Source: a virus. Taken from it: 23,672 bases of DNA. The stretch lies in the IMG/VR virus record IMGVR_UViG_3300018421_000211, positions 1 to 23,672 of that record; one strand, written 5' to 3'. Positions 3,581 through 13,457 of this stretch are shown one piece after another. The translations under genes were made by a program, and so were the position numbers. Position 1 is the stretch's first letter, and the number at the start of each line of letters is the position of its first letter. The notes beneath the pieces are model-generated. The model did no database searches. It had not been told where the DNA came from and saw only the letters and a list, made by a program, of their open reading frames with translations.

Positions 3581-5629
3581 ATGATAACTGTAATTGATTT
3601 AGAAACTTCATTTATAAAAGAAGAATCTGGTAGGATAGACCCATTACCATTCAATCCAAAAAATATATTAGTGAGTTGTGGTATTAATTCTAAATATGGA
3701 GATGAGTATTATTTTTTAAATCACTCAGAAAAAACAAGTAAAGGTGCAGCACCAAGAATACAAGAAGTACTAGATGAAACAACATTACTTGTAGGTCACA
3801 ATATTAAATTTGATTTAGCTTGGTTGTTAGAATCTGGATTTAAGTATAGCGGTAGAATATATGATACCATGATAGGAGAATATATCTTATTAAGAGGAAT
3901 TAAAAATAGTCTTGCATTAGATTCTATTTGTAAGAAAAGAAAGATAGGAAAGAAAGATGATAAGATAAAAGAATTTTTAGACAGAGGTGTATCCTTTGAA
4001 AACATACCACATCATATTGTAGAAGAATATGGTAGGCAAGATGTTATGATTACTAAAACATTATTCAATGCACAGATGAATGATTTTAAAATGGATAAGA
4101 ATAAACATCTATTAAAGACAGTTAAGATGATGAATGAGTTTACAGTTGTGCTAACTGATATGGAACGTAATGGTATTCATGTAGATATAAATGCACTTGC
4201 AGATGTTGAGAAACAATATAGAGCAGAGTATGCATACTTGCGTGCAGAAATTGAGAAAACTATTTATAATAAAATGGGAGATACAAAGATTAATCCTAAT
4301 AGTACAGAACAATTATCTTGGTTAATTTATTCTAGAAAAGTTAAAGACAAAGAAAGATGGAGGTCTATATTTAATATAGGTGTAGACAAGATTACAAAGA
4401 AACAAAAGCGAAGACCACAGATGAGTGTATCTCAAATTGTTAGGCACATAAATGAGAATACAGATGTAATATATAAAACTTCATCTAGTCAATGCGTAGA
4501 TTGTTTAGGTAAAGGCGTAATTAAAAAACTTAAGAAAGATGGAAGTCCATATAAAAATTATAGTAAATGTGCTACATGTGATGGAGAAGGATTAACTTAT
4601 TCTAATCTAGGTAAGGTAGCAGGATTTAATCAGAAACCTAAAAGCATATATGATTTAGCTGATGGTGGATTTAAAACTGATAGAATCACATTACAAAAAA
4701 TGGGAGCCAAAGCTAGTGGAGAACTAAAAGACTTCATTGATAATATCATGAGATACAATGCTATTGATACTTATCTATCTACATTTGTAAATGGTATTAA
4801 AGAATATACTAATGAAGATGGATTACTACACCCTAAATTTATGCAGTGTGTTACAGCTACAGGAAGATTATCTAGTCGTGACCCAAACTTTCAAAACCAA
4901 CCTAGAGCAAAAACATTTCCTATACGTAGTGTAATCAAATCTAGATTTGAAGGTGGTAGAATACTAGAAATAGACTTTGCACAATTAGAATTTAGAACTG
5001 CTGTATTCTTATCTCAAGATGCACAAGGTATAGAAGACATTAAAAATAATGTAGATGTGCACCAGTATACTGCAGATATTATAGGTTGTAGCAGACAAGA
5101 TGCAAAGGCACATACCTTTAAACCTTTGTATGGTGGAGTTACAGGTACAGAAAATGAAAAGAAATATTACTCTGCATTCTTAAAGAAATATAAACAGATA
5201 GCTGAATGGCATGATAAATTACAGACAGAAGCTATCACTTATAAACGAGTTAAACTACCTACAGGTAGAGAATATGCATTTCCATATGCAGAACGTATGC
5301 CTTGGGGTGGGTCAAGTTATGGTACACAAATTAAAAACTATCCAGTACAAGGATTTGCGACAGCAGATATTGTACCATTAGCATGTATAAAAATATATAA
5401 GTTAATGAAAGAACAAAAGGTTAAGAGTTTACTTATCAACACAGTTCACGATTCAATCGTAGCTGATGTTTACCCTGGAGAAGAAGATGTGATGAGTGAT
5501 ATATTTAAACAGGGCACATCATCTGTAGTTCCTACCATGAAGGAATACTATGGAATTAACTTTAACGTACCACTTGACTCTGAATTAAAAATAGGGTATA
5601 ATTGGTTAGACATGGAGGAGGTAGCATAA
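3581..5629 (+). CDS. DNA polymerase I-like (family A) with 3'-5' exonuclease and zinc-type insertion
   Basis: This 682-aa polymerase is predicted to replicate the phage genome. The N-terminal proofreading exonuclease has D6-x-E8, N74/D78 (GHNIKFD) and Y150xxxD154. The polymerase core has motif A with D465 and E470 (EIDFAQLEFR), motif B with R505, K509, F513 and Y517 (RQDAKAHTFKPLYG), and motif C with H623-D624 (VHDS). F513 matches E. coli Phe762; the following Gly is replaced by Lys. Between exonuclease and palm, two CxxCxGxG units (C305/C308 and C330/C333) form an apparent DnaJ-type zinc site not found in Pol I or T7 polymerase. The start at ATG 3581 follows gaaagga. There is no 5' nuclease domain. 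Its stop overlaps the next ATG (TAATG at 5627-5631). Confident in function; the role of the insertion is unknown. Confidence 0.95.
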   Translation: MITVIDLETSFIKEESGRIDPLPFNPKNILVSCGINSKYGDEYYFLNHSEKTSKGAAPRIQEVLDETTLLVGHNIKFDLAWLLESGFKYSGRIYDTMIGEYILLRGIKNSLALDSICKKRKIGKKDDKIKEFLDRGVSFENIPHHIVEEYGRQDVMITKTLFNAQMNDFKMDKNKHLLKTVKMMNEFTVVLTDMERNGIHVDINALADVEKQYRAEYAYLRAEIEKTIYNKMGDTKINPNSTEQLSWLIYSRKVKDKERWRSIFNIGVDKITKKQKRRPQMSVSQIVRHINENTDVIYKTSSSQCVDCLGKGVIKKLKKDGSPYKNYSKCATCDGEGLTYSNLGKVAGFNQKPKSIYDLADGGFKTDRITLQKMGAKASGELKDFIDNIMRYNAIDTYLSTFVNGIKEYTNEDGLLHPKFMQCVTATGRLSSRDPNFQNQPRAKTFPIRSVIKSRFEGGRILEIDFAQLEFRTAVFLSQDAQGIEDIKNNVDVHQYTADIIGCSRQDAKAHTFKPLYGGVTGTENEKKYYSAFLKKYKQIAEWHDKLQTEAITYKRVKLPTGREYAFPYAERMPWGGSSYGTQIKNYPVQGFATADIVPLACIKIYKLMKEQKVKSLLINTVHDSIVADVYPGEEDVMSDIFKQGTSSVVPTMKEYYGINFNVPLDSELKIGYNWLDMEEVA

Positions 5630-10440: not shown

Positions 10441-10556
10441 TAGTGGTGAGATAATATATACCATAATACTAAAAATAATATAAAATATTTTATAGCATCT
10501 GTTTTATTTCCTTTAAAGTATTTATTAAATTTAAATGGATCCTCACCGAATGTCAT
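10440..10556 (-). CDS. Membrane microprotein at the end of the late module (38 aa)
   Basis: On the minus strand, ATG 10556 overlaps the stop of the upstream gene as TAATG, and the TAA lies at 10440-10442, beside the terminator. The 38-residue product has a polar N-terminus (MTFGEDPFKFNKYFKG) and one membrane-spanning segment (YFILFLVLWYIL) ending in SHH. No recognised family. A late membrane peptide could help lysis or be a minor virion component. The exact stop-start overlap supports translation. Confidence 0.55.
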   Translation of the reverse strand: MTFGEDPFKFNKYFKGNKTDAIKYFILFLVLWYILSHH

Positions 10557-10888
10557 TACGCTGTACCCTTCTTGTGTTTCTGTCCTTTGGGAGGAGATTT
10601 TTTTGAACCTCCTGGTCCAGCCCAGAAAAACTTATCAGCCCAATAAGCTGCACTTGTTTTTCCTTTAGCTATATTTGATGCATGTCTAGCTTTGAAACTC
10701 TTTCTAGCTTCTGGACTATAATTATGTCCCATCTTTTGATCACCAAATCTAATAATCTTAACCTTGCCATCATCTTTAACAGCAACGATTCCTTTTTTAG
10801 TAGGATGATTAGGTGTTCTTTTAGGTTTATTTAAACTTGTTAAACCATATTTTTTTAATTTGTCTTTAGTACTATTATCTTTAGACAT
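10556..10888 (-). CDS. Lys-rich marine-phage protein (110 aa), putative virion-associated
   Basis: This 110-aa, very basic protein has a pattern I associate with marine phages: 'LNKPKRTPNHPTKKG' near the N-terminus, a short strand carrying IIRFGDQ, then RKSFKARHASNIAKGK and SAAYWADKFFW. The C-terminus is a flexible Gly/Lys/Pro tail. There is no enzyme motif. Given the charge and late position it is probably a DNA-binding or virion-associated protein. Its start is directly next to the stop of the upstream gene, another Lys-rich protein. Family recognised by pattern; function not established. Confidence 0.7.
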   Translation of the reverse strand: MSKDNSTKDKLKKYGLTSLNKPKRTPNHPTKKGIVAVKDDGKVKIIRFGDQKMGHNYSPEARKSFKARHASNIAKGKTSAAYWADKFFWAGPGGSKKSPPKGQKHKKGTA

Positions 10889-11133
10889 TATACCTTCCTA
10901 TATTTTTTAACCTTCTTGGCTATACCTTTAGGTTGTTTTACAAATTGTTTGCCTTGTGCTTTACCTTTTCTTTTTGCACTGGTTGTTGCGGCATACTCTG
11001 AAGCAGATAGGCTTTTTATAGCTTTCTCTGGTAAATACCTCTCTCCAGTAACGCTGGATTTCTTCCCAGATTTTGTTTTCCATTTTTGTTTTGTCCATGC
11101 CTTTAAACTTTTTTGCGATTTAGCAAGAGCCAT
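10888..11133 (-). CDS. DUF5872-like Lys-rich protein
   Basis: The 81-aa product is extremely basic and shows the recurrent pattern WTKQKWKTKSGKKSS-x(3)-GERYLP, then SEYAATTSAKRKGK and GKQFVKQP, which I recognise as DUF5872-type, common in marine phages. Function is not known; nucleic acid binding is likely from composition. The start at ATG 11133 follows aggag (minus strand, plus 11139-11143). The stop overlaps the following gene's start. It precedes another Lys-rich protein, and both lie downstream of beta-rich structural candidates. Confidence 0.75.
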   Translation of the reverse strand: MALAKSQKSLKAWTKQKWKTKSGKKSSVTGERYLPEKAIKSLSASEYAATTSAKRKGKAQGKQFVKQPKGIAKKVKKYRKV

Positions 11134-11484: not shown

Positions 11485-12258
11485 TTAATTATCTATGAGT
11501 ATTAACTCAAATCCTCCCGATGCTGAAGAAGTAGAATTTGAAATTGCTTGTAATTCTATATCTGTTTTTTCCGTAATTTGAGTTATAGCTCTTTTAGGAA
11601 AGTATGTAAAACCACCTCTAATATTTAAATATTCTTTTGTTTGAAATGCAGCATTAGCAATTGTATTATCTCTAGTTTTTAACTTACAAGTTTGTTCCTG
11701 ATCTTTTGAAGATCCAAAATTCATAGCTACAATATATCCTGTTTTACCAGCAGGTATAGTGTATACTGCCATAAGTGTTTGACCATTTCCTGCTGTTATA
11801 GTTGCAGCAACATCAGATCCACCTGTATAAGTTACAGATATATTACCTTCATTATTTCCAGATGTTCCTGCTGTTTCGACAGACATTCTAAAAACTCTTA
11901 AAAATTCTTGTGTAGTTGTAACTGTAGTTGTTCCATCCATGTCAACAGTTTCTTCAGCTAAATTATAAGAACCATCCAGACCTTGTATTTTTAAAGTTCT
12001 AGCACCCGTTCCTGCTACATCGTCATTAGCATCATCACTCACTACATCCACAGTAACTGCCGAAGATTGATAGGGATACTGTCCACCTGTTTCCCAAATA
12101 ACTTCAAAAGAACCTGATCCAATTGAATCATTATATCCAAACTTATTTACTTTTGAATAACCAGGTATATTACCTTTAGCAACTTCTAGGTAAAAAGGTA
12201 TTCCAGATTCACTACCACTAGAGGTAGTAATTAGCATGGGGTAATGTGTTATACTCAT
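11485..12258 (-). CDS. Beta-rich putative virion structural protein (257 aa)
   Basis: The 257-aa protein is rich in Thr, Ser, Gly and Asn with repeated beta strands and no helical domain. Recognisable phrases include 'GTGARTLKIQGLDGSYN', 'MDGTTTVTTTQEFLRV' and 'VYTIPAGKTGYIV', a pattern common in marine phage structural proteins of unknown exact location. The internal VYTIPAGKTGYI stretch resembles YTVPAN in the next protein, so the two may share a fold unit. The start ATG 12258 overlaps the stop of the SpeD-like gene as ATGA. A decoration, tail-tube or adhesion role is possible; I cannot choose between them. Confidence 0.65.
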   Translation of the reverse strand: MSITHYPMLITTSSGSESGIPFYLEVAKGNIPGYSKVNKFGYNDSIGSGSFEVIWETGGQYPYQSSAVTVDVVSDDANDDVAGTGARTLKIQGLDGSYNLAEETVDMDGTTTVTTTQEFLRVFRMSVETAGTSGNNEGNISVTYTGGSDVAATITAGNGQTLMAVYTIPAGKTGYIVAMNFGSSKDQEQTCKLKTRDNTIANAAFQTKEYLNIRGGFTYFPKRAITQITEKTDIELQAISNSTSSASGGFELILIDN

Positions 12259-12635
12259 TTAATATCTACTAATCCTGTTTCTCTATTTAAAAATTTATAT
12301 TCTATCTTAGTTATATCAAAATCTTTTTTAATTTTTTCGCATACTTGTATGGGATCAAATTCACCACAAGAATATACATCCATTTGTATTAATGCAGGCA
12401 TAGGTTCATCCCATATGTGCACTACAATGTGTGATGTTTCTATAATTGCAGCTACAGTTAATCCTCTATTTCCTGGTATATCTAAATACTTTGCAAATGG
12501 ACCTACTAATGGTTTCATATCTATAAACTTTATAAATTCAGATAACCATTCACAGCTTTTATCTTCTTCCATAGGAGGCTTCATTGCCTCTGCACGAATA
12601 ATTAAATGCTTATGTACGAGTAAACTATCCTTCAT
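12255..12635 (-). CDS. speD: SpeD-like pyruvoyl-dependent decarboxylase (AdoMet decarboxylase family)
   Basis: The 126-aa protein has the length and core of prokaryotic class 1b S-adenosylmethionine decarboxylase, which self-cleaves to form a pyruvoyl group and makes the aminopropyl donor for spermidine. Residues aligned with T. maritima SpeD are S68 (pyruvoyl-forming Ser), H73 (processing His) and C90 (catalytic Cys) in ETSHIVVHIW and DVYSCG. The residue before the Ser is Thr instead of the usual Glu, and there are two extra residues before the Cys. No speE, speA or speC is in the window. SpeD-fold proteins repurposed as arginine or ornithine decarboxylases are known, so the substrate is not certain. 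It overlaps both neighbours by ATGA. GGTGG precedes ATG 12635. Confidence 0.85.
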   Translation of the reverse strand: MKDSLLVHKHLIIRAEAMKPPMEEDKSCEWLSEFIKFIDMKPLVGPFAKYLDIPGNRGLTVAAIIETSHIVVHIWDEPMPALIQMDVYSCGEFDPIQVCEKIKKDFDITKIEYKFLNRETGLVDIK

Positions 12636-12814
12636 GATTTATAACCACCACCTGCAGCTTTATATTTCTTTGCTAATAGCTGTGCTTTACGTGCACTCCA
12701 TTGTCCAGCTTTAGTACCTTGTGTACTTGAAGCTTTGATTTGATTAAATAATTTTTTTCTTAATCCTGGTTTTGTGTAATTGCCTGCTTTGTTGACTGTA
12801 CTTTTTTTACTCAT
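12632..12814 (-). CDS. Lys-rich small protein (60 aa) of marine-phage type
   Basis: The 60-aa highly basic protein reads VNKAGNYTKPGLRKKLFNQI near the N-terminus and GQWSARKAQLLAKKYKAAGGGY at the C-terminus, a pattern I recognise from many marine phages. It has no enzymatic motif. Charge and lack of hydrophobic core suggest a disordered or helical nucleic-acid-binding peptide. ATG 12814 follows aaggag (plus 12826-12831). The stop overlaps the SpeD-like start as ATGA, so the two are translationally coupled. A link between a polyamine-type enzyme and a basic protein is suggestive but unproven. Confidence 0.75.
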   Translation of the reverse strand: MSKKSTVNKAGNYTKPGLRKKLFNQIKASSTQGTKAGQWSARKAQLLAKKYKAAGGGYKS

Positions 12815-13457
12815 CTTTTAACTCCTTAAAGTTGTAGTCATAGCTGCCTTCTTCATACTCATCAGTTATCCATTTAGAACTTGTTTCAACTGACCATCTC
12901 CTATCACTTACTAATCTGTGAATAATAGGTGGCTTATCTAAATCAGTACCCATAGATGCATCAAATACTCTTAATCTATTATTAGGTTGTATTGCATAGT
13001 TACCATCATCTAATTCAATAACATGCCCGCATTTATGCTGGTCTGGTTTTTCCGAATAACCAAAGTTTAATTCATTGTAATCTCCGCCACACCAATCAAT
13101 AGTAAATAGATATGTTCCTTTTCTTTTTACTTTACGTCTTGATATGTATTGCATTTTACAACCTGCAAGTTCATAGAATGTAGTAACTCCTACATTATAA
13201 CTAAAGCTATCCCACATAACTAATTCATTAAGTGGTAATTCTTCTACATTAGGTTTTTTACAAAATGCAGATATAGGTGCTCTCCACCATATGCCCCCAT
13301 CTTCCATAAGAAAATGAAACAAAGGTACTTGATTTGGTATTGAACTAAATCCAAATATAGCACACTCAAAATATTTATCGTGAGAATCTTTTTGATTTCT
13401 TAAATAATTACCTCTAACGTAGCACTCAATGACTGGTATGTTTGCGTTTAAATACAT
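12807..13457 (-). CDS. Conserved marine-phage hypothetical protein (216 aa)
   Basis: The 216-aa soluble protein is rich in aromatic residues and cysteines (IPVIECYVRGNYLR, DGGIWWRAPISAFC, TIDWCGGDYNELNFGY, HVIELDDGNYAIQPNNRL). It is mixed alpha/beta with no signal peptide or membrane segment. I have an impression of similar proteins in marine phages near the speD gene but know no function for them. The cysteines do not form an obvious metal motif. The ATG at 13457 lies inside a 39-aa ORF in another frame, and the stop overlaps the Lys-rich gene. Its length and packing make it a real gene. Enzyme, host-modifying factor and virion protein all remain possible. Confidence 0.7.
   Translation of the reverse strand: MYLNANIPVIECYVRGNYLRNQKDSHDKYFECAIFGFSSIPNQVPLFHFLMEDGGIWWRAPISAFCKKPNVEELPLNELVMWDSFSYNVGVTTFYELAGCKMQYISRRKVKRKGTYLFTIDWCGGDYNELNFGYSEKPDQHKCGHVIELDDGNYAIQPNNRLRVFDASMGTDLDKPPIIHRLVSDRRWSVETSSKWITDEYEEGSYDYNFKELKDE

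Follow-up and report, generated by a model that had tools for sequence, protein, structure and literature searches.

We conclude that a gene carried by a pelagiphage probably encodes a pyruvoyl-dependent arginine decarboxylase (SpeDA), a relative of the S-adenosylmethionine (AdoMet) decarboxylase SpeD, and that the host would convert its product, agmatine, to putrescine; this reading is built on sequence comparison and on analogy with an assayed relative. The gene occupies positions 12255–12635 (minus strand) of a 23,672-nucleotide stretch of viral DNA (IMG/VR record IMGVR_UViG_3300018421_000211), the whole of which is referred to here as the window. It specifies 126 amino acids, with an ATG start and a TGA stop, and is a real gene, beyond chance: it is under purifying selection (dN/dS of about 0.08 in comparisons with its three nearest relatives), relatives of its product are encoded by at least 587 candidate stretches in a scan of IMG/VR, and it shares ATGA overlaps with the genes on both sides (12632–12635 and 12255–12258), which places it in a tightly packed operon. 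The neighbors, considered as context only, are an operon-upstream 60-residue basic protein (12632–12814, minus strand; phrog_17747) and an operon-downstream 257-residue protein (11485–12258, minus strand; phrog_8198), both of unknown function.

Profile searches place the protein inside the SpeD family. It matches Pfam PF02675 (AdoMet_dc; E 2.2e-13, 50.9 bits against a cut-off of 25) and PHROG 3125, "S-adenosylmethionine decarboxylase" (E 8e-15). An AlphaFold2 model (mean pLDDT 90.2) has a predicted AdoMet decarboxylase fold: its best six PDB matches are all AdoMet decarboxylases, from Aquifex, Thermotoga, and potato, and 2iii, 1vr7, and 1tlu align with TM-scores of about 0.65–0.72. Residues E66, T67, S68, H73, W75, D76, and C90 can be read directly in the sequence. 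We aligned 84 members of the family with 8 reference SpeDs, and the three residues that the original prediction had singled out as needed for self-processing and catalysis are invariant in both sets. S68 (codon 12432–12434, minus strand; 84/84 family and 8/8 reference rows), the predicted self-cleavage site and pyruvoyl-forming serine, is equivalent to Thermotoga maritima S63 (PMC10407285); H73 (12417–12419, minus strand) corresponds to T. maritima H68, which acts in processing and catalysis, and C90 (12366–12368, minus strand) to the catalytic C83.

The departures from the usual SpeD sequence that had been pointed out are equally consistent. The residue preceding the serine, T67 (12435–12437, minus strand), is Thr in all 84 family rows, including the assayed protein of phage HTVC201P discussed below, and Glu in all 8 references, and the two-residue insertion ahead of the catalytic Cys, M79-P80 (12396–12401, minus strand), falls in a gap in every reference, with P80 invariant in the family. 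Two further features had been missed: a second insert, "PGN" around residues 53–56, in which N56 is invariant, and the replacement of the usual SpeD motif HTWPE by H-x-W-D-E. The window protein has the residues by which the family differs from SpeD (T67, D76, P80, and Q84), and the idea that its odd residues are peculiar to it alone was rejected, as they are fixed in all 84 relatives. The window protein resembles class 1b AdoMet decarboxylases (T. maritima, Aquifex aeolicus, cyanophage S-PM2) in fold, size, and pyruvoyl Ser, His, and Cys, but differs from them in having Thr for Glu, the two inserts, and H-x-W-D-E, in scoring below the cut-off of the NCBIfam equivalog TIGR03330, and in belonging to a separate clade.

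The closest biochemical evidence comes from pelagiphages. Isolates HTVC103P, HTVC104P, and HTVC115P encode proteins 48–50% identical to that of the window, and the Pelagivirus relatives include HTVC201P AXH71538 (43% identical, E 1e-22). AXH71538 has been assayed and is an arginine decarboxylase (Km 0.87 mM, kcat 0.25 per s, kcat/Km 290 per M per s); it had no AdoMet decarboxylase, ornithine, or lysine activity and did not restore spermidine in an E. coli delta-speD strain, and a related protein from an uncultured phage raised agmatine in E. coli (PMC9992855). HTVC201P and the window phage are both phages of SAR11, speE was found in neither record, and their proteins have in common T67-S68, the P80 insert, Q84, W-D-E, and the catalytic Ser, His, and Cys. 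Both score below the TIGR03330 cut-off of 75.65 (window protein, 43.7; HTVC201P, 38.4). Built on an alignment of only 132 columns, with the assayed ornithine decarboxylases of Lake Baikal and freshwater phages left out and the deep forks uncertain, our tree separated the family from the reference AdoMet decarboxylases with support of 100/100 and put the window protein, HTVC201P, and their cellular relatives in one group.

That the assayed homolog with the same family-invariant residues decarboxylates arginine, and that it and the window protein group apart from bona fide SpeDs, are two of the grounds for reading the window protein as a SpeDA. The original prediction had offered three possibilities, namely that decarboxylated AdoMet feeds a host aminopropyltransferase, that the enzyme has changed substrate, or that it depletes AdoMet; the second gains from the HTVC201P assay, and the other two do not hold up well. 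A true AdoMet decarboxylase supplying a host aminopropyltransferase is improbable, in our judgment. The family name and the retained Ser, His, and Cys speak for it, as does the presence of speE, reported for SAR11 (PMC8437039) and seen beside the cellular homolog in nine gammaproteobacterial genomes described below. Against it stand the inactivity of the assayed relative on AdoMet, the replacement of the Glu before the serine by Thr and of the HTWPE Pro by Asp, the class 1a-like SpeD that those gammaproteobacteria already possess, the lack of SpeE in other cellular carriers and in the phage relatives checked, and the 100/100 separation in the tree. The Pro is not decisive by itself: a Pro has been published as separating SpeD from SpeDA, at a position that the text of the publication does not give, and the assayed AdoMet decarboxylase of phiYS40 also lacks the HTWPE Pro, so we set this discriminator aside.

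The strongest rival is a pyruvoyl-dependent ornithine decarboxylase (SpeDC), which would yield putrescine directly. We regard this as unlikely, but it has a real basis. Freshwater phage SpeD homologs described as HTVC201P-like are ornithine decarboxylases, and one ornithine decarboxylase, UCP01, also uses arginine (PMC9992855); substrate can therefore switch over short distances, which counts against the assignment of arginine, as does the identity of only 43% between the window protein and the assayed enzyme. Furthermore, the JBC tree groups HTVC201P itself with SpeDC (PMC10407285). Four residues, Gln, Thr, Phe, and Tyr, are described there as diagnostic of SpeDC, their positions being marked in a figure (Fig. 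8). On the other side, HTVC201P has no ornithine activity, and the cellular gene neighborhoods described below point to an agmatine intermediate. The phage SpeDCs (Lake Baikal phage, UCP01-04; PMC9992855) resemble the window protein as phage-borne SpeD homologs without AdoMet decarboxylase activity and differ in their use of ornithine, a comparison that we draw from their published description.

If the window protein is a SpeDA, we infer the following course of events. The class 1b SpeD-fold proenzyme would cut itself before S68, which would become the pyruvoyl group of the alpha chain, and this group would decarboxylate L-arginine to agmatine. Agmatine would then be converted to putrescine by the agmatinase of a SAR11 host or, in other hosts, by AguA and AguB. 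The pool of diamines and polyamines would thereby grow late in infection, with possible benefits for translation, nucleic acid binding, and packaging. The host step is in keeping with the view that both cultured SAR11 strains turn agmatine into putrescine by agmatinase (PMC8437039), which is a further ground for the arginine reading.

The window is a fragment of an HMO-2011-type pelagiphage, as judged by its DNA polymerase and by a gene order resembling that of HTVC033P. Pelagiphages infect SAR11, the most abundant bacteria of the ocean. The polymerase (3581–5629, plus strand) is 70% identical to that of HTVC033P and is a DNA polymerase A with a partial DnaJ domain, although the DnaJ match is weak (20.4 bits against a Pfam cut-off of 32.7); this combination is a signature of HMO-2011-type phages (PMC9038755). 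As in HTVC033P, the early genes run along the plus strand and the late genes converge on them from the minus strand. The neighborhood of the speD-like gene includes an amidase, an Rz-like protein, and virion structural proteins, in agreement with the late-module position that had been proposed, and no speE was found in the window (a fragment of about 24 kb, where relatives have about 53 kb) or in 15 related phage records. HTVC033P was missing from the phage matches of the window SpeD protein, and AdoMet decarboxylase goes unmentioned in the published survey of HMO-2011-type phages.

The position of the gene had also suggested a link to the neutralization of DNA charge during packaging, by way of its Lys-rich neighbors. 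This did not fare well: one of these neighbors, an 81-residue protein (10888–11133), has a relative in HTVC033P, a phage in which no speD was detected, and nothing specific speaks for a role in packaging. Another Lys-rich protein, of 110 residues (10556–10888, minus strand), is weakly similar to phage minor head and DNA pilot proteins. A 216-residue protein (12807–13457, minus strand) belongs to a cyanophage and pelagiphage family labeled PurM, ferredoxin, or phosphoribosylaminoimidazole synthetase; no Pfam family matches it, and these names look unfounded.

To find cellular relatives, we scanned genome contigs for the window SpeD family and obtained 48 loci, most of them 44–54% identical and mostly from marine Gammaproteobacteria, Thioglobus/SUP05, and Pelagibacteraceae-like Alphaproteobacteria; some resemble phage or mis-binned contigs (e.g., L117, L129, and L149). 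Genes of the polyamine pathway were then sought in 20 genomes, which are drafts (MAGs or SAGs) and may be incomplete. In nine gammaproteobacterial genomes of 0.8–1.2 Mb the family gene lies divergent to speE, and in one of these genera it is present in 7/7 genomes. We had considered the adjacent speE as a sign of AdoMet decarboxylase activity and rejected it, because a separate, class 1a-like SpeD occurs in all nine. At the seven loci where this second SpeD was read (L185–L191, in six genomes), its E-S-H, H, and C are intact, and it lies near genes that by eye resemble trpC and coq7; these proteins fall far short of the TIGR03331 cut-off and so are divergent.

The same nine genomes lack other visible means of decarboxylating arginine. 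Each has one PF02784 (Orn_Arg_deC) protein of the size of LysA (about 415–440 residues), one of which was confirmed as LysA. The exception is G014, in which a second PF02784 protein occurs with SpeY and agmatinase on contig C30 (L199), a cluster similar to one published for Pelagibacter and probably a contaminant. No OKR-type decarboxylase was found in the nine genomes, and no agmatinase-family protein apart from that on contig C30. Adjacent AguA-like and AguB-like genes are present in 7/9; their products fall well short of the NCBIfam equivalog cut-offs and may therefore act on something other than agmatine. The Pelagibacteraceae-like genomes G001, G002, and G004 present a similar picture, with adjacent AguA and AguB (the latter close to its cut-off), one PF02784 protein each (LysA in the two that were checked), and no SpeE, which is missing from several of the cellular carriers.

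With no other arginine decarboxylase visible and AguA and AguB side by side, the family gene is the sole visible candidate for the step from arginine to agmatine, and this gap in both groups of relatives is a further reason to favor arginine as the substrate of the window protein. Ornithine decarboxylation would also close the putrescine gap of the gammaproteobacterial genomes, but the adjacent AguA–AguB homologs of the gammaproteobacteria and the Pelagibacteraceae-like genomes point to an agmatine intermediate. The reasoning from pathway gaps matches that of PMC10407285, applied here to a branch for which no cellular members were named there. A literature search on polyamine genes of marine Gammaproteobacteria returned nothing on this point.

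The chromosomal relatives also bear on AdoMet depletion or another non-decarboxylase role on the SpeD fold, such as anti-restriction of the kind attributed to phage SAMases. AdoMet-degrading enzymes are indeed encoded by phages (PMC7877911), but all of the catalytic and processing residues are retained here under strong purifying selection, and a role in biosynthesis suits the relatives on chromosomes. We found no support for depletion and consider such a function highly improbable.

In the tree, the clade of the window phage adjoins the Pelagibacteraceae-like clade, its nearest cellular neighbor (support of 86/87), and the HTVC201P clade adjoins the gammaproteobacterial clade (89/76, which is weak); the split between the HTVC201P and window clades has only moderate support. 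Evidence for arginine decarboxylation, from the assay or from a pathway gap, is thus found on both sides of the tree. In previous work, which introduced the names SpeDA and SpeDC and argued that the phage genes derive from bacterial hosts, HTVC201P was listed as what may be a fourth emergence of SpeDA (PMC10407285). The published bacterial and archaeal SpeDAs resemble the family described here in their SpeD fold, their arginine substrate, and their occurrence without the usual speE or beside a second SpeD, but they belong to other lineages. The enzyme type is therefore already known; what seems to be new is the bacterial relatives and how widely uncultured phages carry the gene in their late modules, and the marine gammaproteobacterial and Pelagibacteraceae-like members appear to be the missing cellular clade of HTVC201P-type SpeDA.

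A broader proposal, to which we give slightly less than even credence, is that the marine SpeDA lineage, previously known only from pelagiphages, is also chromosomal in Pelagibacteraceae-like bacteria, Thioglobus/SUP05, and small Gammaproteobacteria of the sea, in which it would replace the PLP-dependent arginine decarboxylase, and that such hosts passed it to phages on at least two occasions, one leading to replication modules and the other to late modules. The chromosomal relatives provide a testable cellular source of the phage enzyme; the 2023 papers inferred such a source, but left it unidentified for this branch. They also suggest that some marine bacteria with small genomes make polyamines with a PLP-free decarboxylase. 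Labels of "AdoMet decarboxylase" lead surveys of phage metabolism to record spermidine synthesis where agmatine or putrescine is the more likely product.

The two phage settings differ in their neighbors. The gene of HTVC201P is beside exonuclease and ribonucleotide reductase genes, and in the isolates examined speD adjoins these or other replication genes, whereas that of the window is in a late operon on the strand opposite the replication genes. In most of the approximately 40 IMG/VR relatives that we compared, speD comes last in the late module or adjoins genes related to those that flank it in the window; in the late-module relatives it follows a protein of about 1400 residues and often also an M15-peptidase endolysin.

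Several observations on gene neighborhoods were made along the way. An Hsp20 gene adjoins or lies near speD in several IMG/VR relatives (e.g., L010, 6187–6618), and in HTVC103P one is found a few kilobases from speD. At an alphaproteobacterial locus (L127, 6633–7673), the gene after the family member encodes a histone-deacetylase-family protein that may be an acetylpolyamine amidohydrolase. Finally, in Microcystis phage MaAM05 (L034, 32–1515) two successive speD paralogs come directly before speE; the second paralog is divergent and may decarboxylate another substrate, so that the three genes may constitute a phage-borne spermidine pathway.
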